Assembly (NCBI GenBank): GCA_020725625.1
Contig: DYET01000098.1
Span: 1-34,577, forward strand
Reading direction: 5' to 3'
Origin: Desulfovirgula sp.
GTDB taxonomy: Bacteria; Bacillota; Desulfotomaculia; Desulfotomaculales; Desulfocucumaceae
Length of the DNA: 34,577 nt
Part shown: positions 9,828 through 32,994 of the stretch, piece by piece
How positions within the stretch are numbered: position 1 is the first letter of the stretch
Layout of the letters: each line of letters begins with the position of its first letter
Translations under genes and position numbers: made by a program
The notes under the pieces: model-generated
What the model saw: only the letters and a program-made list of their open reading frames with translations
Database searches by the model: none
Told to the model about the DNA's origin: nothing

Positions 9828-9848
9828 AACCACACCCCCATATTCTCT

Positions 9849-11018: not shown

Positions 11019-11066
11019 AGTTAACGCTCCTTGTCAGGAATATTATGATCAGGCGGGCCCTCAGCC

Positions 11067-12155: not shown

Positions 12156-12276
12156 GCCTTCACCCTTTAAAAAGCTGCCAGCCAATTAGCTGTCGGTTTT
12201 AAGCTTGTCACCACAAAAGGTACAGGGGTGCGGAAATTGGGATTAGAACAGTCCGCCCTTTGCGGCATGGGGGGTG

Positions 12277-13986: not shown

Positions 13987-14014
13987 TTTCCGCACCTCCA
14001 CATGATTATATAGC

Positions 14015-14106
14015 TTCTAGCTTCTAACCTCTGGCTTCTAGTTGCCAGTGGCCGGCTGCTAGCCGCTGCTGATTACCAATCCCCAACCCCTAATCCCCAA
14101 TCCCCC
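14015..14106 (-). repeat. Low-complexity intergenic tract with G-quadruplex motif
   Basis: On the transcribed (minus) sense, the sequence right after the ligase stop codon at 14113 reads GGGGG-ATT-GGGG-ATTA-GGGG-TT-GGGG (C-runs at 14081-14084, 14087-14090, 14095-14098 and 14102-14106 on the + strand). These four G-runs meet the standard quadruplex rule. The rest of the gap (14015-14042) is a degenerate TAGCTTCTAG-type tandem repeat. Both could affect transcription or message stability between the two ligase genes. Confidence 0.7.
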
Positions 14107-14112
14107 GTTTTT

Positions 14113-15684
14113 TCAGACCCTGCGCTCGCGCCCTTCCCAAAACTTTTCGCGGATTTTTTTCTTGTCAATTTTACCTAGGTTAGTCAATGGAATTTCGTCC
14201 CAGAACTCAACGCTCTTGGGCGCCATCAGGCTTCCCTTGCAGTCCTTGACAAAATTGACCAGGTCCTCCTCGGAAACCGATTTTCCCTCATGCAGCACTA
14301 CCACCGCCTTGACCGCCTCGCCCCACTTCTCATGGGGAACCCCCACCACGGCTACATTTTTCACTGCAGGGTGTTCGTGAAGGGCGTCTTCCACCTCGCG
14401 GGGATAGATATTGAATCCGCCGCTTACAATCATGTCCTTGGACCTGTCCACGATATATAAAAAGCCCTCTTCATCCTGCCTAGCCAGGTCTCCGGTGAAC
14501 AGCCAGCCGTCCCTGACAGCCGCCGCAGTTGCCTCCGGGTTTTTCAGGTAGCCGTCCATCATGTTGGGATGGCGTACCACTATTTCCCCGACCTCCCCGG
14601 GCTTCACATCCCTTCCATCTTCGTCCACAATTCTTACCCGCGCCGGAATGGTGGGCCTGCCGCAGGAGCTGAAAACCCTCCTCTCCCTTTCCGGATCGGC
14701 GATGACGTGATCCTCCCTGGGCAGAACGCTGATCATCATTGGCGCCTCGGTCTGGCCGTAAAGCTGGGTAAATATCGGCCCGAAGGTGTTGATGGCCTGT
14801 TTCAGCCGCTCCGGGGCGATGGCGGCGGCCCCGTAGATTACATTCCGGAGGCTGCTGAAATCGTATTTTTTCAGGTCCGGGTAATCCAGCAGGACGTATA
14901 TCATGGTGGGAACCATAAAGGCCGCGGTGACTTTCTCCTTTTCGGCGGTCTTAAGGAATAACCCGGGGTCGAAATGGTCCAGGATCACGCAGGTGCCCCT
15001 TCTCAGGAGGACCGGCAGGATTAAACAGCCGCCCGCGTGAGTAAGGGGAGTGGCATAGGCGAACACCTCGTCATACCCCAGGCCGAGCTCCAGCATTTCA
15101 GTAAGAAATGTGCTCACCCAGGACCTGTGCGAGAGCATGACCCCCTTTGGACGGCCGGTGGTCCCGCCGGTGTAATAAATGCCGCAAAGGTCCTCCGGGC
15201 TGACTTCAACCTGGGGGACTTCCGGGGGGTTGCCGTCAATTAGCGCATTCAGGTAGACATGACCGTCCATAATTTCCGCGGGATCTTCACCAATGCAGAT
15301 ATAGTGCCTGACAGTCTCAAGCTGCGGGATCATTTCCCTGACCCTGGAAGCCAACCTTTCGTGGTAAATCAGCGCGGCGCACTCCGACTGGTTCATCATG
15401 TAGACATGGTCGCTTGAATTAAGCAACACGGCCAGGGGCACCCTGACATTTCCCAATTTGCCCAGGGCATATTCGCAGAAAATATATTCGGGACAATTGG
15501 CCATCAAAAAGGCCACCCTGTCTCCCTTTTTCAGCCCCATTTTGGCAAAGGCGCCGGCCAGGCGACAGGCCTTTTCCCCCATCTCGCCGTATGTATAAAC
15601 CCTGTCGCCGTGTTTTATGGCCGTTCTGCCCCTGTAAAAAGTGACACACCTGTCGTACAGTTCCCCCACTGTCTGGCTGATCAT
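14113..15684 (-). CDS. AMP-dependent acyl-CoA ligase (long-chain type)
   Basis: A 523-residue ANL ligase. Motifs in order are IYYTGGTTGRPKGVMLSH (P-loop), QLYGQTEAPMM (A5), FTGDLARQDEEGFLYIVDRS (A7/hinge), SGGFNIYPREVEDALHEHP and the C-terminal lysine in LTNLGKIDKKKI. ATG 15684 is used since GAGGGG lies 7 nt upstream; the frame extends to 15717 without a better site. In the YxxGGTTG P-loop the first serine is glycine, seen in several FadD-like enzymes. It would activate a free acid to its CoA thioester. It is preceded by an AT-rich gap of about 180 bp that may hold a promoter, so it could start a separate transcript with the genes downstream. Confidence 0.88.
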   Translation of the reverse strand: MISQTVGELYDRCVTFYRGRTAIKHGDRVYTYGEMGEKACRLAGAFAKMGLKKGDRVAFLMANCPEYIFCEYALGKLGNVRVPLAVLLNSSDHVYMMNQSECAALIYHERLASRVREMIPQLETVRHYICIGEDPAEIMDGHVYLNALIDGNPPEVPQVEVSPEDLCGIYYTGGTTGRPKGVMLSHRSWVSTFLTEMLELGLGYDEVFAYATPLTHAGGCLILPVLLRRGTCVILDHFDPGLFLKTAEKEKVTAAFMVPTMIYVLLDYPDLKKYDFSSLRNVIYGAAAIAPERLKQAINTFGPIFTQLYGQTEAPMMISVLPREDHVIADPERERRVFSSCGRPTIPARVRIVDEDGRDVKPGEVGEIVVRHPNMMDGYLKNPEATAAAVRDGWLFTGDLARQDEEGFLYIVDRSKDMIVSGGFNIYPREVEDALHEHPAVKNVAVVGVPHEKWGEAVKAVVVLHEGKSVSEEDLVNFVKDCKGSLMAPKSVEFWDEIPLTNLGKIDKKKIREKFWEGRERRV

Positions 15685-15867
15685 GGCTATTCCCCTCTTT
15701 TGTTGCTTGATCTGCATAACTATACTAATATGGTTTTATAGTTTTTTGATAAAATTAAATATCGTGGAGTAATTGCGGTTTACCCAACATCTGTTAACCC
15801 GGCTATTGATAAAAAGGTTATTGGTTTTTGGTTATTAGCTGAATATTGCAAATTTTAACTGTAATTC
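15685..15867 (-). promoter_or_regulatory. AT-rich gap, possible internal promoter region
   Basis: This is the longest gap of the minus-strand run. It is AT-rich, with TATAGT-like and TTATCA-like hexamers on the minus strand near 15715-15760, but no pair has ideal spacing. I do not assign boxes. No gene is seen. Confidence 0.3.
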
Positions 15868-19427: not shown

Positions 19428-21437
19428 TCAAATATAAAATTTCCTACTGTACAGCTCCCGGCTTAATCCCGTCAGATCCGCCCACTTCATGGGGCCCCCC
19501 TTGTCCGGAGGGAAGCCCAGTCCCCAGATCATGGCCACGTCTATTGAACCCGGATTATCGACAATTCCCATGTCGAGCAGTTCCTTGCCCTTTTTGACAA
19601 ATTCCAGGTAAAGGGCATCCTGGATTTCCCCGCCGGACATCTCGACGGGATCTCCCTTTACCGCAATCAGTGGCAGCACCCCGGGGTCTACACTGCCGTC
19701 CTTTAAGAAAAATCCCCTTCCCGACTTTTTCAGGCCGGCGCGCCCGTCCTTGATCACCCTTTTAAGTGTTTCCGGCGGGTCCAGTCCCAGGGCGTAAAAG
19801 GCCTTATAATGAACGTCGATACCTATCTCATCGATTAGCCTCACCGGCCCCACAGGAAACCCGAACTGAACCATGGCGGCATCTATTTTTTCAATGGGTA
19901 CGCCCCGTTCCAGGAGTTCGTACAGCTTTAGAAAGTACGGCAGGATAAGGGCGTTGACGACGAATCCCGGGTAGTCGTTGCACACCACCGGGCGCTTCCT
20001 GATGGCTGCGGCAAAGGCCAGCAGGTTGCTAATCGTCTCCGGGCTGGTATTCTCGCCCCTGATAACTTCTAATAGCTCCATCATCCAGACCGGCGAGAAA
20101 AAATGGGCGCCGGCAAATCTCCCGGGGTTGGTTACAGTCCGGGCCATCCTTGTGATGGGAATGGTTGAGGTGTTGCTGGCGATAATGCAGTCACCGGGCA
20201 CAACCCGGCACAGCTCCCTGTATACCCCGTCCTTCACCTTCTGGTCCTCGAACACCGCCTCGATCACCAGGTCCACATCTTTAAAGTGTTCGCCGTATTC
20301 CGGGGTTAACGTCAACAAGCTCATTAACTGGTCTACATCCGCCTTAAGCTTTTTCTTTGCGGCCATTTCCTCCAGTATTTTCCGTACAAATTCTCTTCCC
20401 GGTTCCAGCGCACCGGGCAGGTCCTTGACCAACACAGGAATCTGCATGTGCCTGAGGATGTCAATGACTATGCCGCGCCCCATAGTGCCAAAGCCAAGCA
20501 CAGCGGCTTTCCTTACAGGCCTGGCCTTAAAGCCCGGCGGAACCATGGACAGGGGCTTGTCGGTCCCGGTCTTAAGGAAAAAGGTGTGTATGCTTCCCTT
20601 GGCTTCATTGGAAAGGGTGACCTCGGTAAAATATTTTTTCTCAACTTCCAGGCCTTCTTTTAACGGCAGCCTGACCCCCTCCTGAATGGCTTTGACGGCC
20701 AGCATGGGCCCGGGAAGCTCGCGTCCCCTGGCTGCCTTAATCGCCTTTTGGCGGGCCTCTCCGGCCACGGCATCGATCTGGGAGAAATCGTGGGCCGGCC
20801 TCCTTAAATCGGCTGTTCCGGCAATAATCTCATTCAGCAGGGCTTTGGCCTCTTCCAGCAGGTCGCCCGCCGCCGGCACAACACGGTCGATCAGCCCGGC
20901 CTGAAAAGCCTTGTCTGCGGGCAGGGTCTTTCCGCTTAAGATCAAATCAACCGCAGCGGGACCAATAAGGCGGGTCAGCCGCTGGGTCCCGCCGCCGCCG
21001 GGGAACAGTCCCACCAGACACTCGGGAAGGCCGATCACCGTGGCCTTTGACTCTTTGGCTATTCTTGCCGTACAGGCCAGGGCCAGTTCAAAACCCCCTC
21101 CCAGGCAGTGCCCGTAGATCGCCGCCACCGATGGAAAAGGCGCATCCTGCAGCCTGTCAAAGGCCCGGTGTGTCCGGTCCAGGGCCCGGGCCAGCTTCTC
21201 CCTTGAATCAAAGGCTTCCAAGTATTTGAGGTTTCCCCCGGAATGAAAATTGTTGGGCTTGCCGGAAATGAATATTATACCTTTAATGAACTGGTCATCC
21301 CCAATGGTTTCGACAAGTTCATAAAATTCTTCGCTGACTTCCTCCGTCCAGGTGTTTACCGGTTCCCCGGGCACATCAACGGTGATTACGCCTACTCCTT
21401 CTTCCGCATTGAACTTAAAGATTTTTCCAATCCCCAC
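19428..21437 (-). CDS. Bifunctional enoyl-CoA hydratase / 3-hydroxyacyl-CoA dehydrogenase (FadB/FadJ-like)
   Basis: A 669-residue fusion. The N-terminal crotonase part holds GHCLGGGFELALACTARIA and GLPECLVGLFPGGGGTQRL, with both catalytic glutamates of the FadB family (in GGFE and LPE). The NAD-binding dehydrogenase part starts with AAVLGFGTMGRGIVIDI, continues with IASNTSTIPITRMA and the catalytic histidine in AGAHFFSPVWMMELLEV, and ends with a C-terminal domain (NDYPGFVVNALILPYF). GTG 21437 is chosen since GAGAGGGG lies 8 nt upstream. The frame is open to 21596, but those extra residues look untranslated. The oxyanion GAD motif is HSGGNLKYL, a little unusual. It hydrates and oxidises enoyl-CoA in beta-oxidation, giving the 3-oxoacyl-CoA for a thiolase. 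Confidence 0.9.
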   Translation of the reverse strand: MGIGKIFKFNAEEGVGVITVDVPGEPVNTWTEEVSEEFYELVETIGDDQFIKGIIFISGKPNNFHSGGNLKYLEAFDSREKLARALDRTHRAFDRLQDAPFPSVAAIYGHCLGGGFELALACTARIAKESKATVIGLPECLVGLFPGGGGTQRLTRLIGPAAVDLILSGKTLPADKAFQAGLIDRVVPAAGDLLEEAKALLNEIIAGTADLRRPAHDFSQIDAVAGEARQKAIKAARGRELPGPMLAVKAIQEGVRLPLKEGLEVEKKYFTEVTLSNEAKGSIHTFFLKTGTDKPLSMVPPGFKARPVRKAAVLGFGTMGRGIVIDILRHMQIPVLVKDLPGALEPGREFVRKILEEMAAKKKLKADVDQLMSLLTLTPEYGEHFKDVDLVIEAVFEDQKVKDGVYRELCRVVPGDCIIASNTSTIPITRMARTVTNPGRFAGAHFFSPVWMMELLEVIRGENTSPETISNLLAFAAAIRKRPVVCNDYPGFVVNALILPYFLKLYELLERGVPIEKIDAAMVQFGFPVGPVRLIDEIGIDVHYKAFYALGLDPPETLKRVIKDGRAGLKKSGRGFFLKDGSVDPGVLPLIAVKGDPVEMSGGEIQDALYLEFVKKGKELLDMGIVDNPGSIDVAMIWGLGFPPDKGGPMKWADLTGLSRELYSRKFYI

Positions 21438-21568
21438 GGCCGGCTCCCCTCTCCCTCCTGTAAATCCGTCTCCAACCTCCGGCTTCCTGCATCCCGGCCG
21501 GTACCCAGGCCACACTTTTAACTGCACTCGGAACCGTGTATGCTGCACAAAAATCCGGTTTTCAAGTT
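21438..21568 (-). other. 131-bp spacer before the FadB-like gene
   Basis: No hairpin with a T tract and no convincing promoter are visible. The minus strand carries an AGGAGGGAGAGGGG tract that supplies the ribosome site of the following gene. Confidence 0.35.
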
Positions 21569-22123
21569 CTAAATCCTGACCTCCCATTCGCAGCATACAC
21601 CGCTGCCTATGGTCTCAGGCGGTATTTGCAGGGCTTTTACAGATATATCCGGATTCAGGGCGCGGGCCTGCATCTCGAACATCTTCGTTTCCACTTCACG
21701 GCAGAAGTACTTTTCTCTTCCCCCACCCTCCTTTATCAGGGCCTCCAGAGTGGGGCATTTTTGCACCCTGATTGTGCCGTGATTTTGATTGATTAAATCG
21801 GCCTTGAATTTGATGTTCCAGGACCACGGGCTGAATTGGAGGATTTTAAAAAAGGACTCGATATCATTTCCCGTAATATTAAGAAGCTTCGTTATGTGTT
21901 TGGTTTCGTACCTGAAGTACTTGTTCCAGGCCCACAGGTCGCGTTCTATGGCGGTTTTATCGCCGAAGCGGTCCTTTACCGAAAGATACCAGAAGCCGTC
22001 TATGGCTAAAAACAGTTTGCCGTACAGCTTTAAGGCCTCCAGCAGCAGTTCCCTCGGAAAGCTTTCCCACCCGGTATCCGGCCTGAAATCACCGCTGTAG
22101 TCTTTCATTTCGCCCATTGCCAT
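21569..22123 (-). CDS. Small cytoplasmic protein, DUF6125 / ATC-hydrolase-like
   Basis: A 184-residue protein starting at ATG 22123, with GAGGG five to six nt upstream; the frame runs further upstream but over the previous gene. It is helical in its first half (ELLLEALKLYGKLFLAIDGF, then WAWNKYFRYETKHITKLL), followed by FKILQFSPWSWNIKF, and a C-terminal part with cysteines in RVQKCPTLEAL, YFCREVE and GVCCEWEV. By recall this resembles the DUF6125 group, related to L-2-amino-thiazoline-4-carboxylate hydrolase-like proteins, which are common near acyl-CoA genes in anaerobes. No enzyme activity is established for it. It is 17 bp after the dehydrogenase stop, so tightly co-transcribed. The three Cys positions could bind a metal. 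Confidence 0.6.
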   Translation of the reverse strand: MAMGEMKDYSGDFRPDTGWESFPRELLLEALKLYGKLFLAIDGFWYLSVKDRFGDKTAIERDLWAWNKYFRYETKHITKLLNITGNDIESFFKILQFSPWSWNIKFKADLINQNHGTIRVQKCPTLEALIKEGGGREKYFCREVETKMFEMQARALNPDISVKALQIPPETIGSGVCCEWEVRI

Positions 22124-22140: not shown

Positions 22141-23286
22141 CTATAAACCCAGGGTTTTTGCCACAATGTTCTTTTGAATCTGGGTGGTGCCGCCTCCGAT
22201 TGAAAGAATCAGGACATCCCTCAGGTACCTCTGCATGTCGTGAGCCATGACCGGCCCGTACGGCCCGAGAATGTTGATGCCCTGCATTACCACCTTTTTT
22301 GCGGTCTCGGCGGCAAAATATTTGGACATGGATGTTTCTTTCACGCATTCTATTCGCTGCGTTTCCTTCCAGGCGGCGTAATAAGCCAGTTGCCTTGCTG
22401 CTTCCAGTTCAGTTGCCATTTCCACCAGCCTGTGCTGTATCGACTGGTACTGATCCCTCGACTGCCTGTGCCTGAAGTTTTCTTTTGCAAATTCGACTGC
22501 GTCTTCCAGGGCCGCCTGGCCGATTCCCAAGGCGCAGGAAGAAAGCACCAGCCGTTCCTGGTTTAAAAGCTTCATCTCCTGCTGCCACCCTTTGTTCAGT
22601 CCGCTTTCCCCGCCCAGTATGTTCCCGGGCGGTACTTTGACATTGTCGTATATAACCTCGCAGGTGTTCGACCCGTGGTATCCCAGTTTCTTGATGGGCC
22701 TGGCGCTATAACCCTCGGACTTTGTATCCACTATAAACGATGTTATTCCCCCGTACCTGGACTCACCCGTACGGGCAAAGGTAATGGTGTAATCCGCGAC
22801 CCCGGCCCCGGTGATGAACATCTTGCTGCCATTGATCCAGAAGTAGCCGTCCTTATAGGCGGCCTTTGTGCTTATGTTGGCGGCGTCCGATCCGGCGTTG
22901 GGCTCGGTGATGGCAAAGCTGAACATGACCTCGCCTTTGGCCAGCCTGGGCAGGTACGATTCTTTTTGTTCCCGGCTGCCGTTGAGGGAGATGATTTCGT
23001 TTCCGTACAGCGCTATGTTTCCCATCGCCCATGACAGTACGGGCAGCCTCCTTGAAATTTCTTCGTAGACAATCATCGTGTCAATGACATCTCCGCCCAT
23101 GCCGCCGTATTCCTCCGGGATGTTAATCCTCATGAAGCCCTGTTGGCTCAATTTTTTAATCAGTTCATGAGGAAACTCGTCCCTTTTGTCCAGCTCCCTG
23201 GCATGCTCCCTTGGTATTTCTTTCTCAACGAATTCCCGGATTTTTTCTTTCAGCGCGCTTCGCTTTTCATTAAAACGAAAATCCAT
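22141..23286 (-). CDS. Acyl-CoA dehydrogenase, YEGT box replaced by GGGT
   Basis: A 381-residue acyl-CoA dehydrogenase: N-terminal helical domain, FSFAITEPNAGSDAANIST (flavin motif), WINGSKMFITGAGVADYTI, and the C-terminal ILGPYGPVMAHDMQRYLRDV. The catalytic-glutamate box reads ILSIGGGTTQIQKNIVA, so the usual E is G. An acid is present in LLNQERLVLSSCALGIGQA, near the base position of isovaleryl-CoA-type enzymes. ATG 23286 follows GAAGGAG; ATG 23319 is possible. It lies directly after the MaoC hydratase gene and so belongs to the hydratase-aldolase group. Enzymes of this group that act on branched or ring-carrying substrates (such as steroid side chains) often have a moved base. Confidence 0.85.
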   Translation of the reverse strand: MDFRFNEKRSALKEKIREFVEKEIPREHARELDKRDEFPHELIKKLSQQGFMRINIPEEYGGMGGDVIDTMIVYEEISRRLPVLSWAMGNIALYGNEIISLNGSREQKESYLPRLAKGEVMFSFAITEPNAGSDAANISTKAAYKDGYFWINGSKMFITGAGVADYTITFARTGESRYGGITSFIVDTKSEGYSARPIKKLGYHGSNTCEVIYDNVKVPPGNILGGESGLNKGWQQEMKLLNQERLVLSSCALGIGQAALEDAVEFAKENFRHRQSRDQYQSIQHRLVEMATELEAARQLAYYAAWKETQRIECVKETSMSKYFAAETAKKVVMQGINILGPYGPVMAHDMQRYLRDVLILSIGGGTTQIQKNIVAKTLGL

Positions 23287-23340
23287 TTTCCGTTCTCCTT
23301 CGGAAAGGCTTGTGTTCAAAACGGTCCGGCGCTGGGTTCG

Positions 23341-23796
23341 TCAGGAGTCCTGCGGCCGCCTGTGCATCATGAATTTCATGAGCAGCCCCATGACAACTTC
23401 GTTTTTCTGGTTGTATACCTTGTACTGCCAGGTTTGTACCCCCTGGGTCGGCTTGCTGGTTTCCCTTCTGTCGATGACCTCCACCTCAACGGTTATAGTG
23501 TCGCCTATTTTAACGGGGGCAAACATTTTCATGTTGTCCACCCCCAGCCAGGCGATCACCGAATCCTCGGCAATCCCCGTCATTCCCACCAGGCCCACGG
23601 CCATTCCAAATATCAGCGGCCCGTGGGCTATCCTTTCTTTGAAAATGGTCCTGGCGGCATATTCCTTGTCCATGTGCAGGGGATAAAAATCCATGGTCAG
23701 GCCGGCCCAGTTGACTATATGGGTTTCGGTCACCGTGATGGAAGCTGTTCTGAAACTGAACCCGACGCCAAAATCTTCCCAATACTTCTTTGGCAT
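23341..23796 (-). CDS. MaoC-like (R)-enoyl-CoA hydratase
   Basis: A 151-residue single hot-dog domain protein. The hydratase-2 motif is present as NWAGLTMDFYPLHMDKEYA, where D36 and H41 are the catalytic pair; the Asn and Gly positions of the textbook GDxNPLH motif are changed (MDFYPLH). ATG 23796 has AAGGAG upstream. It should add water to a 2-enoyl-CoA. Its place 24 bp after the DUF35 gene, with the Cys-less thiolase-fold gene before that, matches the gene content of the ChsH1/ChsH2-Ltp2 hydratase-aldolase complex, in which a MaoC protein and DUF35 domain work together. Here MaoC and DUF35 are separate proteins and only one MaoC is present, so it probably forms a homodimer. Confidence 0.85.
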   Translation of the reverse strand: MPKKYWEDFGVGFSFRTASITVTETHIVNWAGLTMDFYPLHMDKEYAARTIFKERIAHGPLIFGMAVGLVGMTGIAEDSVIAWLGVDNMKMFAPVKIGDTITVEVEVIDRRETSKPTQGVQTWQYKVYNQKNEVVMGLLMKFMMHRRPQDS

Positions 23797-23820
23797 GATT
23801 TCACTCCTTCACGCTGACCT

Positions 23821-24237
23821 TCACTCAGAACCGGCAGGCTTGAACTTGGGCAGGACAAAGTTCTCGTTCAGCCTCTCAAAGGTAACTTCAACGGGCATTT
23901 CACAGCGGACCTCGTCGGGGTCGCAGCCGACAATGTTGGTGAGCATCTGCACTCCCTCCTCAAGGCGCACAATGGCGATGACGAAGGGCATGTCGCCGAT
24001 AAAGGCCGAAGGGGCGTTGCTGCGGACTACTGTATACGTGTAAACCCTGCCTTTTCCTGAGGCCGGAACCCATTCGATGCGGTCCGAAAAACAGAAGGGA
24101 CAGCAGATTCTGGGATAAAAAATGTGTTTTTGGCAGTCCAGGCATCTCTGAATGATCAATTTCCCTTCATTGGCGGCGTTCCAGTACGGTTTCGTCCAGT
24201 AATTGACGGGCGGCGCGGGCTTTTCGGGCGCACTCAC
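23821..24237 (-). CDS. DUF35 OB-fold protein with rubredoxin-like zinc ribbon
   Basis: A 138-residue protein with the standard DUF35 layout: an N-terminal helix (VNYWTKPYWNAANEGKLI), a zinc ribbon of two Cys pairs in QRCLDCQKHIFYPRICCPFC, then an OB-fold with GKGRVYTYTVV and MPFVIAIVRLEEG. GTG 24237 is preceded by AGGAGGGG. DUF35 proteins act as partners of thiolase-fold enzymes. Known cases are BbsA with BbsB in toluene degradation, the bridging protein between thiolase and HMG-CoA synthase in archaea, and ChsH2-DUF35 with Ltp2. The gene sits 15 bp after the thiolase-fold gene; the two products almost certainly form a complex. The C-terminal part (MPVEVTFERLNE) is normal. Confidence 0.88.
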   Translation of the reverse strand: MSAPEKPAPPVNYWTKPYWNAANEGKLIIQRCLDCQKHIFYPRICCPFCFSDRIEWVPASGKGRVYTYTVVRSNAPSAFIGDMPFVIAIVRLEEGVQMLTNIVGCDPDEVRCEMPVEVTFERLNENFVLPKFKPAGSE

Positions 24238-24252
24238 TTTATCCCCTCCTGT

Positions 24253-25437
24253 TTATGGAATCTCCGTTCCCAGAATAGTTACGTGGGTATCCATGTATGT
24301 CCCACCGGTGGCGGTTTCAATTGCGAAGCGGGCTCCTTCGACCTGCCGCTCCCCTGCTTTCCCCATCAACTGCCGGGCCGCCTCCACCAATATGGCGACG
24401 CCCCCGCCGGCTCCGGTATGTCCCTGGGACAGCATTCCCCCGTTGGTGGTCATGGGCAGCTTCCCGCCCGGCCAGGTATTTCCCTCGTATACGAAGGCTC
24501 CGGCCTCGCCCCTTTTGCAGAATCCCAGCTCCTCCAGGGCTATAAGCTGAAAAACCGGATATGAATCATATATTTCTGCTATGTCTATGTCCCGGGGCGT
24601 CAGCCCGGCTTCCCGGTAGGCTTCCTCCGCTGCTGCGGCGTAGGCGAAGCGCGTCAGGTCAGGCTCCTGTGAAAGGGCGAAGTGGGTGACCCGGGACCCT
24701 TCACCCAGTATGTAAACCGGCCTGTCGGTGATCTCCCTGGCCCGCTCGGCGGAGGTAATGATAAATGCCGAACCGCCGTCGGCCAGCATGTTTGACTCCT
24801 TGGCATGCAGGGGGGTGGACAGCATCTTTGAGGCCATAACCTCTTCCACCGTGAGGGGCTTGCGGAACATTGCGTTGGGGTTCAGTTCGGCCCACTTGCG
24901 GTTGGACACGCAAACAGAGGCTACCTGTTCGGCGGTCGTTCCCGTTTCATACATGTACCGCTGGGTGATTAGCCCTGCTATGGCCGAGTAGTGCATACCG
25001 TAGGGGACTTCCCATTCCTTCGAAATCCCGGCCGTTGAAAAAAGGTCAATCCCTCCCTGGGCGGACACGCCCGTGCCCAGCTTGTCGGCGTGGACACACA
25101 GAATGCACCTGGACACTCCCAGGTTGATCAGGCCCGAAGCTATCCTTAAAAAGTTGCAGCTGCTGGATCCCCCGGAAAAAATCTGTACGTTGTTTTTTAC
25201 TTTTCCGGCCAGCCCGATCTCCTCCACAATCCTGCAGCCCACCAGCTCGGTGTTGAACTGCGGGCTGTAAAGTGCGGCAGTGGGGATCACGGTGTCGATC
25301 TCGTCTTTGTTGATGCCCGCATCCAGGATGGCTTGCCTGGCCGATTCGATTGCGCATACGATGGCTTCACGATCGGGAAACTTTCCCGTCGGAACCTCGC
25401 CTATTCCGACTATGGCGGCCTTTCCCTTAATGCCCAT
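24253..25437 (-). CDS. Thiolase-fold protein lacking the nucleophilic Cys (Ltp2-like aldolase candidate)
   Basis: A 394-residue protein of the SCP2-thiolase / lipid-transfer group. The nucleophile motif (ENxCxSG in true thiolases) is IFSGGSSSCNFLRIA, so Gly90 sits where Cys should be; the nearest Cys is 94. The HDCF motif is EIYDSYPVF, with Tyr290 for His and Ser292 for Cys. The GHP motif is retained as SQGHTGAGG (H340). This substitution pattern is that of the retro-aldolase Ltp2 and related lipid-transfer proteins, not of a thiolase. ATG 25437 follows AAAGGAGG. It is next to the DUF35 and MaoC genes, hence a candidate aldolase that cleaves a 3-hydroxyacyl-CoA made by the hydratase. A non-catalytic scaffold remains possible. 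Confidence 0.8.
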   Translation of the reverse strand: MGIKGKAAIVGIGEVPTGKFPDREAIVCAIESARQAILDAGINKDEIDTVIPTAALYSPQFNTELVGCRIVEEIGLAGKVKNNVQIFSGGSSSCNFLRIASGLINLGVSRCILCVHADKLGTGVSAQGGIDLFSTAGISKEWEVPYGMHYSAIAGLITQRYMYETGTTAEQVASVCVSNRKWAELNPNAMFRKPLTVEEVMASKMLSTPLHAKESNMLADGGSAFIITSAERAREITDRPVYILGEGSRVTHFALSQEPDLTRFAYAAAAEEAYREAGLTPRDIDIAEIYDSYPVFQLIALEELGFCKRGEAGAFVYEGNTWPGGKLPMTTNGGMLSQGHTGAGGGVAILVEAARQLMGKAGERQVEGARFAIETATGGTYMDTHVTILGTEIP

Positions 25438-25466: not shown

Positions 25467-26366
25467 CTATTCGTCTACCAGCGTACTGCCCAGGTACCTA
25501 CAAACCCTGAAATAGTCCTCCGCCATTTCCCGGATAACCTCCGCGGCGGGTTTGATTTCCTCCACTTGGGCGACGCTCTGTCCGGCGCTCCAGATGTCGA
25601 GCCAGCGTTTTGAACCCAGTCCGGGCCTTTTGTCGACTTTCTCTATGCTCTTCGCCAGCCAGTTGGCAAAGTTCCCGGTAATGCGGTCGGTAAAAACGAT
25701 GTCCCCCGGCCCGGCTTCGATGACCGCCTGTTTGTAGGCCGGCAACGCCCTGGCCTCAGGTGTCGCGATCAGCCGCGTGCCCACAATGACCGCACATGCC
25801 CCGACGGCGAGGGACGCCGCCATCTGTGCCCCGGTGCTGACGCCGCCCGCCGCGATTACGGGCAGCCCCACCTTATCCTTCAGGTACGGAACCAGGATCA
25901 GCGTGGGTACGGTGCCTGCATGTCCCCCGGCCCCGGAGCCCACAGCCACCAGGCCGTCCACCCCCCTTTCCCGGGCCCTTACCCCCTGATCAAGAGAGAT
26001 GACGTCGGCGAACACCTTGCCGCCGCTGGCGTGGACATCCTTTACAATAAGGGCTGGGTCCCCCAGGGAAGTGATGAAGAATTTTACGCCGTAGTCCAGG
26101 CACAGGGCCAGCTGTTCCCGCCAGGGAAATCTCCCGGACAGGTGGATATTTACCCCGAAGGGCTTATCGGTGGCCCTCCTGACTGTATCCAGGGCCTTTT
26201 TCAGGTCATCCGCCGTCCGGTAATTGGGCAGAGGAAAGGTGCCCAAGCCGCCGGCCTCGGAGACCGCCACGGTCAGGTCCTCGAAGGAGACCAGGAACAT
26301 CGGCGCCCCGATAATCGGATAGCGGATGTCAAACATTTCTGTAAATAATGTCATTATTCTGGCCAT
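25467..26366 (-). CDS. Nitronate-monooxygenase / 2-nitropropane-dioxygenase-like FMN protein
   Basis: A 299-residue FMN-binding TIM-barrel protein. Motifs include RYPIIGAPMFLVS at the N-terminus, GVDGLVAVGSGAGGHAGTVP (phosphate/FMN contact), VIAAGGVSTGAQMAASLAVG and AVIVGTRLIATPEA. ATG 26366 follows TAGGAGG. Family members include nitronate monooxygenases, FabK enoyl reductases and FMN-dependent dehydrogenases. In an anaerobic acyl-CoA cluster, an enoyl-CoA reductase or an isomerase-type role is more likely than nitroalkane oxidation. It lies between two thiolase-fold genes with gaps of 9 and 29 bp, so all are co-transcribed. The FabK-specific elements cannot be verified by eye, so the reaction stays open. 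Confidence 0.8.
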   Translation of the reverse strand: MARIMTLFTEMFDIRYPIIGAPMFLVSFEDLTVAVSEAGGLGTFPLPNYRTADDLKKALDTVRRATDKPFGVNIHLSGRFPWREQLALCLDYGVKFFITSLGDPALIVKDVHASGGKVFADVISLDQGVRARERGVDGLVAVGSGAGGHAGTVPTLILVPYLKDKVGLPVIAAGGVSTGAQMAASLAVGACAVIVGTRLIATPEARALPAYKQAVIEAGPGDIVFTDRITGNFANWLAKSIEKVDKRPGLGSKRWLDIWSAGQSVAQVEEIKPAAEVIREMAEDYFRVCRYLGSTLVDE

Positions 26367-27615: not shown

Positions 27616-29034
27616 TTATCTGACGGGCCGGCATTTCCACCAGTAGACATTTATGCCTTCCACCTGCCGGAATTTTCTAAAAGTCAATTCCACCGGCATT
27701 CCCACCTTAACCTCGGCCGGATCCCTGTCCGTTACGTCCAGCATAATTCTTCCCCCGCCGTCAAAATCAACGGCTGCCACGGTTGAGGGGGGATCGGGGG
27801 ACACGGCCAGATTATCGTGGGAAAACGTAGTGACCTTTCCCTGCTTATCTGCAAAGGGGTGGTATTCAAAATCATCCTTTGCCAGGCATTCCATACAAAT
27901 TCTCTGGACCGGGTATTGAACGGTGCCGCACTTCCTGCACTTAACGCCGTAAAGGGTCATGCCGCACTTGCGGTCTCTCCACAATGCCACTGCGGAAACA
28001 GGCTCGGTGCGCGGGCGCGTCGGCGGCTCGGTACTGACGACCTCCCGCCAGCGCAGGTACTTCTGGTAGCTCAGGCCGGCGTTTTTGGAATCGATTTGCC
28101 TGCCAATCACCTGCCTGCCCCGCAGCTTTGCGATCTCATCAGTTACCGTCAGGGCCAGTACGTCGCAGCCGTCCCCGTAGTTGACCCACAGTATTTTATC
28201 GCCGGATTTCGATTCATCAAGGGCCGCTGCCAGCAACATCATGGACTGGGCTGTCCCGGTGCAGCCTACCGTGCTGTACATGGTATCCTGGACCTGTTTT
28301 TTTGCGTCAAATCCCGTCATTTTTGCCGCCGCGCCAAGATAGCCGGGATTGGGGGCGGAAAAAACCGCCCTGGCAAAATCCTTTGCCGTCATGTTGAATT
28401 TTTTCAGGGCTGCGGCAACCGTATCCGCCACAATTTTTATATATCCTCTTTCCCTGACAAAGCGATCTTCCCAGGATCTGACATAGTTTTCTTTTGCGGG
28501 CCTGAAAACTTCAAATATTTCGTGGTTGCTGCTGTACACCTGGTCAATAGTGGCGATAACCCCGGCACTTCCCAGCAGAAGCGCGGCCGCGCCGTCACCG
28601 AACTCCATTTCCCTGGCGCCGTTCGGCAGCCCCATGCGGTTATCGGAGGCACACACCAGGACATTCCCGGCGGTGCCTCCCTTTATTGCGTCAATGGCCA
28701 GCATAACGCCGCTTGTTCCGGATCTTAGTGATCCGGAAAGGTCAAGCGTCAATACTTCCTGCCTCATGTCGACGGCCGCCGCGACCAGGGCGGCCGACTG
28801 CTTCTCGCCGTACGGGAAAGTCGTCGAGGCTAAATAGAATTTATCAATATTATTTGAATCAAAGCCTTTGAGGCAGTCCCTGCATGCCTCCACCGCCATG
28901 GTGACAATGTCTTCATCGTAGTTTGCCACCGACCTTTCGCCCGGCAAAGGCGGGCCGCCCCAGAATTTGGAAATCTCGGCGCGGCTCAGCCTGTAATAAG
29001 GAATATAGGCTCCATACGATGTAATACCTACCAT
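27616..29034 (-). CDS. HMG-CoA-synthase-like protein fused to DUF35, catalytic Cys and His absent
   Basis: A 472-residue fusion. Residues 1-330 are HMG-CoA-synthase/KAS III-like: GITSYGAYIPYYRLSR at the start, then YGEKQSAALVAAAV (E77 at the Glu position) and STVGCTGTAQSMML with LWVNYGDGCDVLALTVTDE near the end. Residues about 345-472 are DUF35, with zinc ribbon CRKC (366-369) and CMEC (380-383). The active-site motif NACYGGT of true synthases reads SGSLRSGT (Leu103 for Cys), and the HQPN motif reads FSAPN (Ser226 for His). Condensation by the known mechanism should be impossible. ATG 29034 follows AGGAGGG. It may serve as a scaffold, as an acyl-CoA binder for the next-door thiolase, or catalyse a different reaction. 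Subfamily function is not known to me. Confidence 0.82.
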   Translation of the reverse strand: MVGITSYGAYIPYYRLSRAEISKFWGGPPLPGERSVANYDEDIVTMAVEACRDCLKGFDSNNIDKFYLASTTFPYGEKQSAALVAAAVDMRQEVLTLDLSGSLRSGTSGVMLAIDAIKGGTAGNVLVCASDNRMGLPNGAREMEFGDGAAALLLGSAGVIATIDQVYSSNHEIFEVFRPAKENYVRSWEDRFVRERGYIKIVADTVAAALKKFNMTAKDFARAVFSAPNPGYLGAAAKMTGFDAKKQVQDTMYSTVGCTGTAQSMMLLAAALDESKSGDKILWVNYGDGCDVLALTVTDEIAKLRGRQVIGRQIDSKNAGLSYQKYLRWREVVSTEPPTRPRTEPVSAVALWRDRKCGMTLYGVKCRKCGTVQYPVQRICMECLAKDDFEYHPFADKQGKVTTFSHDNLAVSPDPPSTVAAVDFDGGGRIMLDVTDRDPAEVKVGMPVELTFRKFRQVEGINVYWWKCRPVR

Positions 29035-29074: not shown

Positions 29075-30508
29075 TTAATTATTGATTCCTGCCAGTTCCT
29101 CGGCCAGTTTCTTGCAATATGCGATGGTTTTCCTTGCCTCGCCGTAAATGGTCATCCTTTCTGCCTGGGGAGAGCCTTCACCGTGCAGGGCGATGGTCTC
29201 GAGCTCGGAGTGCGTCATTCTGCGGATCAGGTCGAGCATCCTCAGCCTGCTTTCAGTGGGTATCCCGGCCTTGGCGCCGCAGTACTTGACAATATCATCC
29301 TTGAGCTCGGGAACACAGTAATCCAGATAAGACGGCCTGGTTACCAGCAGCCCGCCTGCCAGGTCCTGCACTATCCTGATGATTTCATGGTAATTATGGG
29401 CGAAGTGGTACTTGGCGATATTGGTAACCACCGGGTTGGGAATGGCTATGCCGCCATACATCGTGTAGTCATAGCACGCCGCCTTGCACAATGCCTTGAG
29501 GGTCTCCAGGTAAATTACCATATCGGTAATCTTTTCCCTTACGTGTTGAGCCTTTTCCACGCCGTTGTATTCGGCTATCGCCTGCGCCATACCCAGCAGC
29601 TGCTCGCTTAAGGGTATCCTGTATGCGCAGCCGGTCCGCCTGTGCAGCAGCGCAAAGTTATATACCATGGTGGCGGCATACTTCCATTCACCGCAAAGGA
29701 ACACGCGTTCCCATGGAACAAACACGTCGTCGAAAATAATCAGGGAGTCGGTAATCATGGTGTGAGGGCGCTGGTTGGGGAAGTCGTTGGCCGACCTTCT
29801 CTCGACAAAGGGGCGCACCACCTGTTTTATTCCCCTGGCATTGGCCTGAATGGCAAATGCCACGGCGTAGTCCGCATCGCCTTCAGTCATGGCGCGGCAT
29901 GGAATTACAAAGAACTCGTTGGCATACGCGGCGCCGGAAATATGAGCCTTGGCGCCCCTGACGATAATTCCCTTGCTGTTTTTCTCAACTACTCGTACGT
30001 AATAATCCTTGTGGGCCTGGCCGGGATCTCCGGGCCGAAGCATCCTGTCGCCCTTTACGTCGGTCACGGCGGCCACAACCGCGATGTCCGTTTTCTTCAG
30101 GTATTTACGGTAGTTTTCAATTCTTTCGATATATTCCTTGTTCCCCATTACGTTCGCCGTGATGCTGATGCCGTTGAGGGCGTCGGCGCCGATATCGTGG
30201 GACAGGGGAATATACCCGTCCCCCAGTTCGGTTGACTTGATAATCAGTTCCTGCATCTTCAAAAGGTCATCACCGTTTCTGGGTATGTAGAAATGCCTGC
30301 TTATTTCTTCTCCCAGTTCCTCGTCGTATACGACAGCCAGGTCCTTATACCTGGGGTCATGGGCCATTTCAAAGTCTATGGCCATGGTGTTGACGCAGTT
30401 AGCGATGGCCGGGTGCCCGGTTACGTCTTCCACTTTATCGCCCTTGTAATATACTACCCGCCCGTCTCTCAAACTCTCTTTGTACTGTTCCGCAGTCATC
30501 AGGCCCAT
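29075..30508 (-). CDS. 4-hydroxyphenylacetate-3-hydroxylase / 4-hydroxybutyryl-CoA-dehydratase-fold flavoprotein without Fe-S ligands
   Basis: A 477-residue flavoprotein. It is collinear with 4-hydroxybutyryl-CoA dehydratase (AbfD) in MTAEQYKESLRD, AAVTDVKGDRML, IVRGAKAHISGAAYANEFF, AMTEGDADYAVAF, FDDVFVPWERVFLCGEW and AGGLLVTRPS. AbfD binds a [4Fe-4S] cluster by C99, C103, H292 and C299. Here, by my alignment from memory, the first two positions are P101 and D105 (YIPLSHDIGADALNG). The H and C are retained as HRRTGC but with a shorter spacing. The cluster therefore probably does not form, and FAD alone would act. Oxygenase use is unlikely in an anaerobe. Start ATG 30508 after GAAGGGA; MTAEQ (codon 4) is an alternative. 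Candidate roles: dehydratase, isomerase or dehydrogenase for an acyl-CoA. Confidence 0.8.
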   Translation of the reverse strand: MGLMTAEQYKESLRDGRVVYYKGDKVEDVTGHPAIANCVNTMAIDFEMAHDPRYKDLAVVYDEELGEEISRHFYIPRNGDDLLKMQELIIKSTELGDGYIPLSHDIGADALNGISITANVMGNKEYIERIENYRKYLKKTDIAVVAAVTDVKGDRMLRPGDPGQAHKDYYVRVVEKNSKGIIVRGAKAHISGAAYANEFFVIPCRAMTEGDADYAVAFAIQANARGIKQVVRPFVERRSANDFPNQRPHTMITDSLIIFDDVFVPWERVFLCGEWKYAATMVYNFALLHRRTGCAYRIPLSEQLLGMAQAIAEYNGVEKAQHVREKITDMVIYLETLKALCKAACYDYTMYGGIAIPNPVVTNIAKYHFAHNYHEIIRIVQDLAGGLLVTRPSYLDYCVPELKDDIVKYCGAKAGIPTESRLRMLDLIRRMTHSELETIALHGEGSPQAERMTIYGEARKTIAYCKKLAEELAGINN

Positions 30509-30573: not shown

Positions 30574-32190
30574 TCACCAAACGAGTTTCTTTTTGGGCAG
30601 TCCGCGGTTGTAAGGTTTAAAGGCTTCTTCTATATTTGACCCCATCATGCTGTCCACGCACATTACAGCGCTCAGTGCCGCGGATTCAACACCGCAGCTC
30701 CAGTTGCGCTCGCCGTACTGGTCACCTGCGAAATACAGGCCTTCAACATACGGGCAGACCACGTCGGGTCTTTCCTTGCCGACGGGCCTCCACCAGCCGA
30801 GAGCTTCATCGCAGGGAGTCCACAAAATAAATTCGACTTCATTTTCCCAGACGTCTTGCCCGAATGTCGTCTTAAACCACGCCTCGTTGAACTCGATGAT
30901 CCTGTTGACCTTTTGCGGGTTGCGCATTTCAGCTTCTGTAAGCGCAGTTGAGAAGGCGAAGTCGCGCTTTCCTTCGGGAGCCCTTCCCTTTGCCGGGGCG
31001 CCCGGTGTCGCCAGGCTGTCCCTGGAGGAGGAGGACAGGTTCCAGTACACCATGTCGACGCAGCCGATGTATCCTTCATGTTCGATGACGGCCGGCATGT
31101 AAATAAAGCTTCTTTCTTCAATCCCCTTGGCCGCCCAAACGTCGCTCCTGAGGCCGGCCATGCCCGAAAGCAGCCCGACACCCCAAAACTCGGTTTCAAT
31201 GGACTTGACGAATTCCGCCGGGAAGTGCCTTGGGTGAATCACGTTGAACATATACTTGGGCTGTACGGTACAGATGACTTTATCCGCATAGATGGTCTCG
31301 TGGCCGTTCTTTGTCAGAACATTGACGCCCCTGACCCTGCCCTTTTCAATGATTGTCTCGGATACGGCGCTGTTTCTCCACACCTCTCCGCCATTGTTCA
31401 GGATGACCTTTTCCATTGCCAGCGGAATGGCCACCGGCCCGGGATTGGCCACCGTTCCAACGGAGCCGGAAACTAGGTTCATTTTGATGTCCCTCTGTAT
31501 GCACATCTGCCCGAGGAAATCACCTGCCGGCGTCATCTTGGGCTCGGCCTGACCGGTCTGGGATGCTGCAAGGACCTTGATAAAGTCATAGGCTTCCGGG
31601 TGCATGCCCCTTAGTTCCAGCCAGGTCTGAAGGTCCGTGTTCATTTGTCCCTGCACGTCGGCCAAGCTCATTCTGCCCATGTCCCTCAAAGCCCTCATTG
31701 TGGCCTTGAAGCCCTCTTCACTCATCCACTTGTAGGGCTCGCCCTTTCCCACCTGGTATGCCTTGTTGCCGCCCTTCCAATCTATAAAAGCAAAACCCGT
31801 GTTGACGGGAATGTCGACTTCCACGCCAAGGTATTTCAGCAGGTTGGCCCCTCTTCCCTTATTGCCCCAGAACAGTCCGTGAGCGCCGTTGTCAAAGGTA
31901 TACCCGTCAAAAAGGCCCTTCTTCATGCATGTTTCCAGGTCCGGGGTGCACTTTGCCACCCAGCACTTGGACATTTCAAGAACCCTCTTAAATCCTTCGG
32001 CATCCAGTTCCAGGCCGTCAATGGTCATCTTGTCGCCCTTGCCCACGAAGGAGGCCAGGCGGCCGCCAATATACGGCGCTTTCTCAAGGACCAGAACTTT
32101 CTGATTGAAGTCCTTCGCCAGCAGTGCGGCTGCACCGATACCTGAAACCCCACCGCCAATGACTACTACGTCGTATTTCTTTGCCATCAT
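30574..32190 (-). CDS. Phytoene-desaturase-like FAD-dependent oxidoreductase
   Basis: A 538-residue protein of the amine-oxidase / phytoene-dehydrogenase group. The N-terminal dinucleotide motif is YDVVVIGGGVSGIGAAALLA, followed by VLVLEKAPYIGGRLAS (the conserved GGR). The C-terminal FAD motif is YVEGLYFAGDQYGERNWSCG. ATG 32190 or 32187 both fit the AAGGGGG site. Relatives desaturate carotenoid precursors, saturate retinol, or oxidise other hydrophobic substrates. In this cluster it may introduce or remove a C=C bond in a hydrophobic acid. Unlike CrtI the middle part is rich in charged residues and a short proline/glycine-rich insert (TPGAPAKGRAPEGK) is present. No signal peptide or transmembrane helix is seen, so it is likely cytoplasmic or peripheral. 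Confidence 0.8.
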   Translation of the reverse strand: MMAKKYDVVVIGGGVSGIGAAALLAKDFNQKVLVLEKAPYIGGRLASFVGKGDKMTIDGLELDAEGFKRVLEMSKCWVAKCTPDLETCMKKGLFDGYTFDNGAHGLFWGNKGRGANLLKYLGVEVDIPVNTGFAFIDWKGGNKAYQVGKGEPYKWMSEEGFKATMRALRDMGRMSLADVQGQMNTDLQTWLELRGMHPEAYDFIKVLAASQTGQAEPKMTPAGDFLGQMCIQRDIKMNLVSGSVGTVANPGPVAIPLAMEKVILNNGGEVWRNSAVSETIIEKGRVRGVNVLTKNGHETIYADKVICTVQPKYMFNVIHPRHFPAEFVKSIETEFWGVGLLSGMAGLRSDVWAAKGIEERSFIYMPAVIEHEGYIGCVDMVYWNLSSSSRDSLATPGAPAKGRAPEGKRDFAFSTALTEAEMRNPQKVNRIIEFNEAWFKTTFGQDVWENEVEFILWTPCDEALGWWRPVGKERPDVVCPYVEGLYFAGDQYGERNWSCGVESAALSAVMCVDSMMGSNIEEAFKPYNRGLPKKKLVW

Positions 32191-32229: not shown

Positions 32230-32994
32230 TTAAAGCGAACTACCGCCGTCCATTACAATGACCTGGCCGGTTACCCAGGCTGATGCGTCCGTGGCCAGGA
32301 ACAGGGCAATTCTGGCCACCTCTTCCGGTTCCGATAAGCGTTTTAAGGGAGTATGGCTCATTTCTTGTTTCAACAATTCCTCGTTGCTCCAGAGAGCCTG
32401 GCTGAACCTGGTCTTCACCAGCCCGGGAGCGATGGCGTTCACCCGGATGTTGTAGTCCCCCATCTCCACTGCCATGGCCTTGGTGAGCATGATGATCCCG
32501 GCCTTGCTGATGCAGTACAGTCCCAGCCCCTTGTCCGGGCTGACGCCGCCTACGGAAGAAATGTTGATGATATTCCCGCCGCCCTGTTCTCTCATCAGCT
32601 TCCCCACCAGCTGGCTCAATACGGTGTAGCCCTTTAAATTAGTGTTCATGATCTGGTCGTACATCTTTTCGTCCATGTCCACCAGCAGGCCCATGCCCGG
32701 GTTGGTGGCCGCGTTGTTGACCAGGATGTCGATGCGGCCGAACTCTTCCCTTGTCTTTTCAAAAAGATTTACCAGGTCCTCCGTTTTGCGGATGTGGGCA
32801 GCCACGGGCAGGGCCTTCCTCCCCATACCCCTGATTTCATTGGCCACCTCCTCAAGGTGGGGCTGGTTCCGGCAACTCACGGCAACGTCGGCCCCGGCGT
32901 CGGCGAACATCACGGCTATGGCCTTGCCGATACCGCGGCAGGCGCCGGTGACCAGGGCCACCTTGCCTTCCAAAGAAAGGTACGAAACGTCCAA
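32230..32994 (-). CDS. Short-chain dehydrogenase/reductase (SDR)
   Basis: A 254-residue classical SDR: TGACRGIG cofactor loop, NNAA motif (DILVNNAATNPG), catalytic serine in IINISSVGG, and YCISK for Tyr/Lys. An arginine after beta-2 (VSCRNQ) favours NADP(H), in contrast to the other SDR at 7343, which looks NAD-dependent. The start is TTG 32994, preceded by GAGGGGG. C-terminal WVTGQVIVMDGGSSL is typical FabG-like. It is 52 bp after the DUF362 gene and 39 bp before the flavoprotein gene, hence the second gene of the putative operon. It would interconvert a hydroxy and a keto group on the substrate or its CoA ester; which one is not visible. Confidence 0.87.
   Translation of the reverse strand: MDVSYLSLEGKVALVTGACRGIGKAIAVMFADAGADVAVSCRNQPHLEEVANEIRGMGRKALPVAAHIRKTEDLVNLFEKTREEFGRIDILVNNAATNPGMGLLVDMDEKMYDQIMNTNLKGYTVLSQLVGKLMREQGGGNIINISSVGGVSPDKGLGLYCISKAGIIMLTKAMAVEMGDYNIRVNAIAPGLVKTRFSQALWSNEELLKQEMSHTPLKRLSEPEEVARIALFLATDASAWVTGQVIVMDGGSSL

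Follow-up and report, generated by a model that had tools for sequence, protein, structure and literature searches.

Organization of the locus

The window analyzed here, a 34,577-nucleotide stretch comprising positions 1 to 34,577 of the forward strand of contig DYET01000098.1 (assembly GCA_020725625.1, Desulfovirgula sp.), carries a minus-strand run of closely spaced acyl-CoA genes that is transcribed from position 32994 (Table 1). Within this run lie three intact open reading frames, separated from each other by intergenic gaps of 15–24 nt and surrounded by gaps of about 15–30 nt, which encode a thiolase-fold protein (THL394), a free DUF35 protein and a MaoC-type hydratase. In the order of transcription, the trio is preceded by genes for a short-chain dehydrogenase (SDR), an FAD oxidoreductase, an HpaB-family protein, an HMG-CoA-synthase (HMGS)-like protein with a DUF35 domain, a second thiolase-fold protein (THL399) and a nitronate monooxygenase (NMO)/FabK-like enzyme. 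It is followed by an acyl-CoA dehydrogenase, a DUF6125-like frame, a FadB-like protein, a second acyl-CoA dehydrogenase and four acyl-CoA ligases, interspersed with one more dehydrogenase and a protein resembling geranylgeranyl reductases. The four ligases are crowded into 9 kb (8286–17493), with three of them adjacent. Scanning the window for Rfam families and tRNAs returned no matches.

Table 1. Features of the minus-strand acyl-CoA operon, with window coordinates.
Feature	Position	Strand	Remarks
SDR dehydrogenase	32230..32994	-	Conserved in 10 related loci
FAD oxidoreductase, phytoene-desaturase/amine-oxidase superfamily	30574..32190	-	Conserved in 10 related loci
HpaB/4-hydroxybutyryl-CoA dehydratase-family flavoprotein	29075..30508	-	Without FeS cysteine ligands; conserved in 9 related loci
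HMG-CoA-synthase-like protein with C-terminal DUF35	27616..29034	-	Leu103 at the nucleophile position
THL399, ordinary Cys-containing thiolase paralog, 399 aa	26376..27575	-	Cys, HDCF and GHP all retained
FMN enzyme, nitronate monooxygenase/FabK family	25467..26366	-	Conserved in 9 related loci; putative enoyl reductase
THL394, thiolase-fold protein, 394 aa	24253..25437	-	Predicted acyl-CoA retro-aldolase; Gly90 at the Cys position, Tyr290-Asp-Ser-Tyr293, His340
DUF35 protein, free, 138 aa, GTG start	23821..24237	-	Zinc ribbon C32/C35/C46/C49 and OB fold; predicted to pair with THL394 as a subunit
MaoC-type (R-specific) enoyl-CoA hydratase, 151 aa	23341..23796	-	Asp36/His41 dyad; predicted maker of the β-hydroxyacyl-CoA substrate
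ACD392, acyl-CoA dehydrogenase	22141..23319	-	Predicted to catalyze the preceding desaturation; at least 50% identity in 14 related loci
FadB-like hydratase/3-hydroxyacyl-CoA dehydrogenase	19428..21596	-	
Acyl-CoA ligase (FACL3)	14113..15717	-	At least 58% identity in 15 related loci; predicted to activate the substrate

The composition of the trio had been proposed in a sequence-only reading as a MaoC hydratase with D36/H41, a free DUF35 protein and a thiolase-fold protein with Gly90 and YDSY, next to an acyl-CoA dehydrogenase. Open reading frames, Pfam matches and alignments confirmed both the coordinates and the residues, and the dehydrogenase is indeed present (Table 1). THL394 matches Pfam Thiolase_C_1 (2e-56), and in alignments with solved structures its Gly90 occupies the position of the thiolase nucleophile and YDSY that of the HDCF motif. 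The DUF35 protein matches zf-ChsH2 and OB_ChsH2_C (1e-24), combines a rubredoxin-like zinc ribbon with an OB fold, and has its four ribbon cysteines invariant in 21 sequences. Its best matches in the PDB are the DUF35 domains of the ChsH2-Ltp2 (6ok1_B, 1.2e-23) and Shy-Sal (9myr_B, 1.2e-20) aldolase complexes. The third protein matches MaoC_dehydratas (3.2e-22) and belongs to the MaoC fold family; D36 and H41 of its D-x4-H dyad are invariant in all 18 orthologs. Among solved structures it matched PaaZ-type hydratases, and no ChsH1-ChsH2 structure was found among its structure matches.

The host is an anaerobic sulfate reducer that probably degrades aromatics, because neither the heme-copper oxidase subunit COX1 nor cytochrome bd was found in the genome in searches with working controls, while DsrA (580 bits; cut-off 393) and BamA (567 bits; cut-off 464) scored above their cut-offs. 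The anaerobic setting supposed for these genes was thereby borne out. No match to the CdhC marker was obtained in the genome, and we do not claim a Wood-Ljungdahl acetogen. The contig as a binning contaminant was ruled out by its tetranucleotide profile, which correlates with those of other contigs, including the dsrA contig, at r = 0.89–0.95.

THL394 lacks the nucleophilic cysteine of thiolases

We compiled a conservation set of 41 sequences, consisting of the window protein and relatives at 45–83% identity. Gly89-Gly90, Tyr290, Tyr293, Gly339-His340 and Gly378-Gly379 are invariant in all 41, as is His252, while position 291 is Asp or Gly and position 292 Ser or Ala. The clade thus displays the motifs YDSY, YDAY, YGSY or YGAY together with the invariant His340. 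The only cysteine near the nucleophile position, Cys94, is present in two of the 41 sequences, and no cysteine is invariant anywhere in the protein. The nucleophile has therefore been replaced, as the earlier reading had it, and a true thiolase employing C94 as a hidden nucleophile was ruled out. As Gly90 stands in place of the Cys as well, thiolase chemistry is excluded for THL394 as far as sequence allows.

THL399 offers a contrast within the same operon (Table 1). Among seven thiolase paralogs aligned from the same genome, six keep the Cys, and all seven have His at the position equivalent to 290. The one Cys-less paralog (L005; C195:26565-27713) shows a different half-way state, with Gly at the nucleophile position and HDAF and GHA kept.

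A separate clade on the aldolase side of the tree

A maximum-likelihood tree of 67 sequences, with BbsB, an archaeal acetoacetyl-CoA thiolase and the own-genome paralogs on the thiolase side, split the Cys/His thiolases from all Gly/Tyr aldolase-type proteins with a support of 100/99. THL394 was thus placed on the aldolase side, with Ltp2 and Sal and apart from the true thiolases. There it belongs to a clade of its own (100/100), outside the Ltp2 (100/100), Sal (100/99) and 4U4E (97/93) groups; the mutual branching order among these four aldolase-side clades has a support of 87/17, which does not resolve it. All five groups were retained upon re-running the tree without the three catalytic stretches, the D clade and the thiolases both at 100, so the split between thiolases and aldolases is not driven by the motifs.

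The predicted model of THL394 (pLDDT 87.6, pTM 0.91) has 4u4e as its nearest fold, followed by the Sal-Shy aldolase (9myr); Ltp2 lies at a TM-score of 0.83–0.84, and thiolases are near too. Aldolase and thiolase are not told apart by the fold alone, but by the residues and the tree.

Conservation of the trio and of its neighbors

More than 20 other microbes, spread over many phyla, share the trio, which is contiguous in 20 of the 21 untruncated loci with at least 60% identity, an arrangement far beyond chance; the exception (L029) has an HpaB-family gene inserted in the trio. The nearest locus, in a Desulfovirgula metagenome-assembled genome (MAG), has an identical gene order and 67–89% identity for most genes. 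Of 60 genomes searched as relatives, only the one to which the window belongs yielded a protein this close to THL394, yet copies with about 70% identity occur in Desulfobacterota, Chloroflexota, Spirochaetota, SAR324, a Methanotrichaceae bin and four proteobacterial/actinobacterial bins. This scattered distribution indicates horizontal spread, with the reservation that the relatives are nearly all MAGs, so that their taxonomic assignment depends on the quality of the binning.

Not every relative of THL394 is paired with a MaoC protein, since in a sister clade at about 48% identity (L034–L051; YGSY/YGAY), mostly from actinobacterial and deltaproteobacterial MAGs, DUF35 adjoins and a crotonase-like gene replaces MaoC, and two further relatives (L031, L032) are without any hydratase partner. 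A free DUF35 and a free MaoC also occur in aerobes, as a plasmid of Rhodococcus sp. 008 carries both, in the order acyl-CoA dehydrogenase, MaoC, THL394-like protein (47%) and DUF35, with a P450 a few genes on. A 53% identical relative on the Rhizobium etli plasmid pRetNXC12e (L064) is clustered with P450, acetoacetate decarboxylase-family and hydantoinase-family genes.

The most constant partners across related loci are the acyl-CoA ligase and the acyl-CoA dehydrogenase, followed by the FAD oxidoreductase, the SDR, and the HpaB-family and NMO-like proteins (15, 14, 10, 10, 9 and 9 loci, respectively), and three related loci contain genes for branched-chain-type ABC importers, named by eye from the sequence. 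The FAD oxidoreductase lies directly upstream of THL394 in four proteobacterial/actinobacterial bins (L017, L020, L023, L028); NCBIfam contains no close family for it, and a search of the plasmid collection gave no match. Phytoene desaturase is nearest overall to its model by TM-score (0.66/0.75), whereas the Foldseek E-value ranks other members of the superfamily first. A limonene dehydrogenase or Δ24-desaturase was ruled out for this protein, as the covalent-flavin consensus is absent in 10 of 10 orthologs. In the HpaB-family protein, the three cysteine ligands of the FeS cluster in 1U8V are replaced by Pro101, Asp105 and Tyr296, and the replacements are invariant in 10 orthologs. With the cluster ligands missing, a 4-hydroxybutyryl-CoA dehydratase was ruled out; judged by these residues, the neighbor is an FeS-free flavoprotein in anaerobes. 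The HMGS-like protein shares the missing Cys nucleophile with PhlA. Beside the Cys thiolase THL399, it resembles either a PhlABC/AACT-HMGS complex in which two subunits have been fused or a lyase of the LrcC type; most related loci lack both it and THL399.

A proposed hydratase-aldolase module

We propose, with a probability of roughly 0.7, that the trio is a catabolic hydratase-aldolase module, in which hydration by MaoC is followed by a retro-aldol step of THL394-DUF35 with Tyr290 and His340 as the predicted catalytic residues. An acyl-CoA delivered by a ligase would be desaturated by the adjacent acyl-CoA dehydrogenase, and MaoC would add water to give the β-hydroxyacyl-CoA. THL394, together with the free DUF35 protein, would then cleave the Cα-Cβ bond, releasing a ketone or aldehyde and acetyl- or propionyl-CoA. 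Adjacency of the genes and the type of DUF35 support such a THL394-DUF35 complex. In the active site, Tyr290 would deprotonate the β-hydroxyl, for which Gly90 may provide room, and His340 would return a proton to the CoA enolate, the role of Tyr344 in Ltp2 and of Cys304 in Sal. The equivalent of His340 in true thiolases is the histidine that activates the Cys.

The assignment of the acid draws on the two characterized enzymes. For Ltp2, the motif residue Tyr294 has been reported to act as the base, with Tyr344 as the acid, while Sal uses Tyr302 and Cys304, with a Gly at the nucleophile position that rules out thiolysis (PMC12329534). Y302 of Sal was proven essential by a Y302F exchange, and activity was lost when the motif Cys was exchanged for Ser (PMC12329534). 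In our alignments, Tyr344 of Ltp2 corresponds to His340, and Cys304 of Sal corresponds to Ser/Ala292. Residue 292 is unlikely to be the general acid, because Ala occurs there; given that the Cys-to-Ser variant of Sal is inactive while Ser or Ala is found here, the acid would have to sit elsewhere. His340 appears to be the best candidate, with His252 as a spare, and we infer a Tyr/His pair.

Our best guess for the substrate is a bulky alicyclic or isoprenoid-like acyl-CoA, based on the likeness of the FAD protein to phytoene desaturase, the branched-chain-type importers and the HMGS-like protein. The suggestion that the module might handle a quaternary β-carbon is chemically too strong, as such a carbon cannot be desaturated and hydrated. 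The β-carbon must accept water and can thus bear at most two carbon substituents besides Cα, which gives a tertiary alcohol.

Alternative explanations

Cinnamoyl-type substrates would leave the proposed chemistry intact and change only its use: an arylpropenoyl-CoA side chain would be cleaved to an aromatic aldehyde feeding benzoyl-CoA degradation. The BamA hit, which makes degradation of aromatics via benzoyl-CoA probable for this genome, and the PaaZ-like MaoC are in keeping with this idea, but such a route would not need the desaturase-like FAD protein, the FeS-free HpaB-family protein or the HMGS-like neighbor, and we regard it as unlikely. We give still less credence to a THL394 working in the synthetic direction, as an acyltransferase or a condensing enzyme of the aldol or Claisen-like kind with DUF35/HMGS-like partners as in PhlABC. 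Although PhlABC-type complexes (PDB 5m3k) use partners such as the HMGS-like protein with DUF35 and the Cys thiolase of this operon, these two are missing from most related loci, THL394 itself is without an invariant Cys, and the ligases and acyl-CoA dehydrogenases that fill the operon, together with branched-chain-type solute importers in related loci, fit catabolism.

That THL394 is an Ltp2 or Sal orthologue and the organism an anaerobic steroid degrader seems very improbable. Fold, the Gly and Tyr substitutions and the types of partner are alike, and one related locus (L041) encodes, close to the cluster, a DUF1329-like protein, named by eye from the sequence; however, Ltp2 and Sal each lie on a fully supported branch of their own, in which position 340 is occupied by Tyr or Gln, the MaoC protein gave no ChsH1/ChsH2 match, THL394 scores 222 against a cut-off of 469 for the NCBIfam lipid-transfer family PRK07855, and no 3-ketosteroid-Δ1-dehydrogenase above the cut-off was found in the genome. 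The slimmest chance goes to a non-catalytic THL394, serving the MaoC hydratase as a scaffold or as a chaperone that binds enoyl-CoA or β-hydroxyacyl-CoA. Loss of the nucleophile would suit such a role, and PhlA-like HMGS-fold partners without a nucleophile are known in related complexes; against this, the polar residues Y290, Y293 and H340 are invariant over a large divergence and across phyla, as expected of a working catalytic site.

Novelty and implications

Cleavage of side chains by retro-aldol reactions is known from denitrifying steroid degraders, and Sal homologs have been reported in Azoarcus sp. Aa7 (PMC8399759, PMC6208644). The chemistry is thus not new to anaerobic growth, in contrast to what the sequence-only reading had implied; new here are the clade, the predicted catalytic pair and the wide conservation of the operon in strict anaerobes. 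We found no published description of this cluster in the open-licence literature and no assayed member of the THL394 clade in the literature.

As a tentative extension, to which we give slightly less than even odds, the hydratase-aldolase module may contain a third type of aldolase built on the thiolase fold, whose Tyr/His pair retains the histidine of thiolases. Such an enzyme would be central to an as yet undescribed anaerobic route for bulky acids (alicyclic, terpenoid or branched), widely distributed among sulfate reducers, syntrophs and a few lineages generally regarded as aerobic. Characterized thiolase-fold aldolases come from steroid degraders. If the THL394 clade is active, this strategy of C-C cleavage would be widespread outside steroid pathways, in strict anaerobes of many phyla and with a different catalytic pair. 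It would help to explain how anaerobes, without oxygenases, overcome the obstacle of β-branched or ring-bearing acyl-CoAs, and would correct the annotation of a whole branch as acetyl-CoA acetyltransferase/thiolase. The clade would also provide a natural test of the change from thiolase to aldolase, in which the Cys-activating His was apparently kept and reused.

Comparison with known systems

Several anaerobic systems can be set beside the window. The benzene 'Magic' cluster of anaerobic benzene degraders differs in its gene set and the naphthalene thn operon in its lyases, and neither accounts for the locus. Anaerobic cleavage of a tertiary β-hydroxyacyl-CoA, a tertiary alcohol for which thiolysis is impossible, has been shown or proposed for the AtuA-like lyase ThnQS (PMC12016498) and for LrcC of the HMG-CoA synthase superfamily (PMC12583861). 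Compared to THL394, these are unrelated or distantly related proteins, although the window also encodes an HMGS-like protein. The benzoylsuccinyl-CoA thiolase BbsAB (PDB 7pxp) likewise combines, in anaerobes, a thiolase fold with a separate DUF35 subunit, but BbsB keeps the nucleophilic Cys and HDAF and groups with thiolases.

The best match in both sequence and structure is 4U4E, a putative thiolase from Sphaerobacter thermophilus, with the PRK06158 group, in which Gly, Tyr and His fill the three key positions. This group forms a separate branch (97/93) with the motifs YDSF, YDHF or YDCF, and we found no characterized function for it.

Ltp2 with ChsH1-ChsH2, the actinobacterial hydratase-aldolase for the C3 side chain of steroids (PDB 6ok1), shares with the window the thiolase fold, Gly for Cys, Tyr for the His of HDCF, a DUF35 partner and a preceding MaoC hydratase. 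Of the sequence-only reading, the functional idea of a hydratase and a Cys-less aldolase acting together in an anaerobe is well supported by the residues, the clade and the fold, while its equation with the ChsH1/ChsH2-Ltp2 pattern and partner set proved inexact: general acid, motif, type of MaoC and clade all differ. Ltp2 has YDHF and Tyr344 where THL394 has YDSY and His340, and the two, at about 30% identity, fall in separate clades; in the heteromeric ChsH1-ChsH2 hydratase, DUF35 is fused to an inert MaoC, whereas the window encodes a lone MaoC of the PaaZ/Shy kind with an intact dyad and a free DUF35.

Sal with Shy, the proteobacterial hydratase-aldolase for the C5 side chain of bile acids (PDB 9myr), also has Gly at the Cys position, the equivalent Tyr302, a single MaoC of the PaaZ kind, reported as PaaZ-type in Shy (PMC11321319), and, within Shy, a DUF35 that binds the aldolase. 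It departs from the window in the YDCY motif with Cys304 and Gln352, in place of Ser/Ala292 and His340 in THL394, and in Shy itself, where MaoC and DUF35 are fused and the zinc site is Cys3His1, as opposed to the free, Cys4-type DUF35 protein encoded here.
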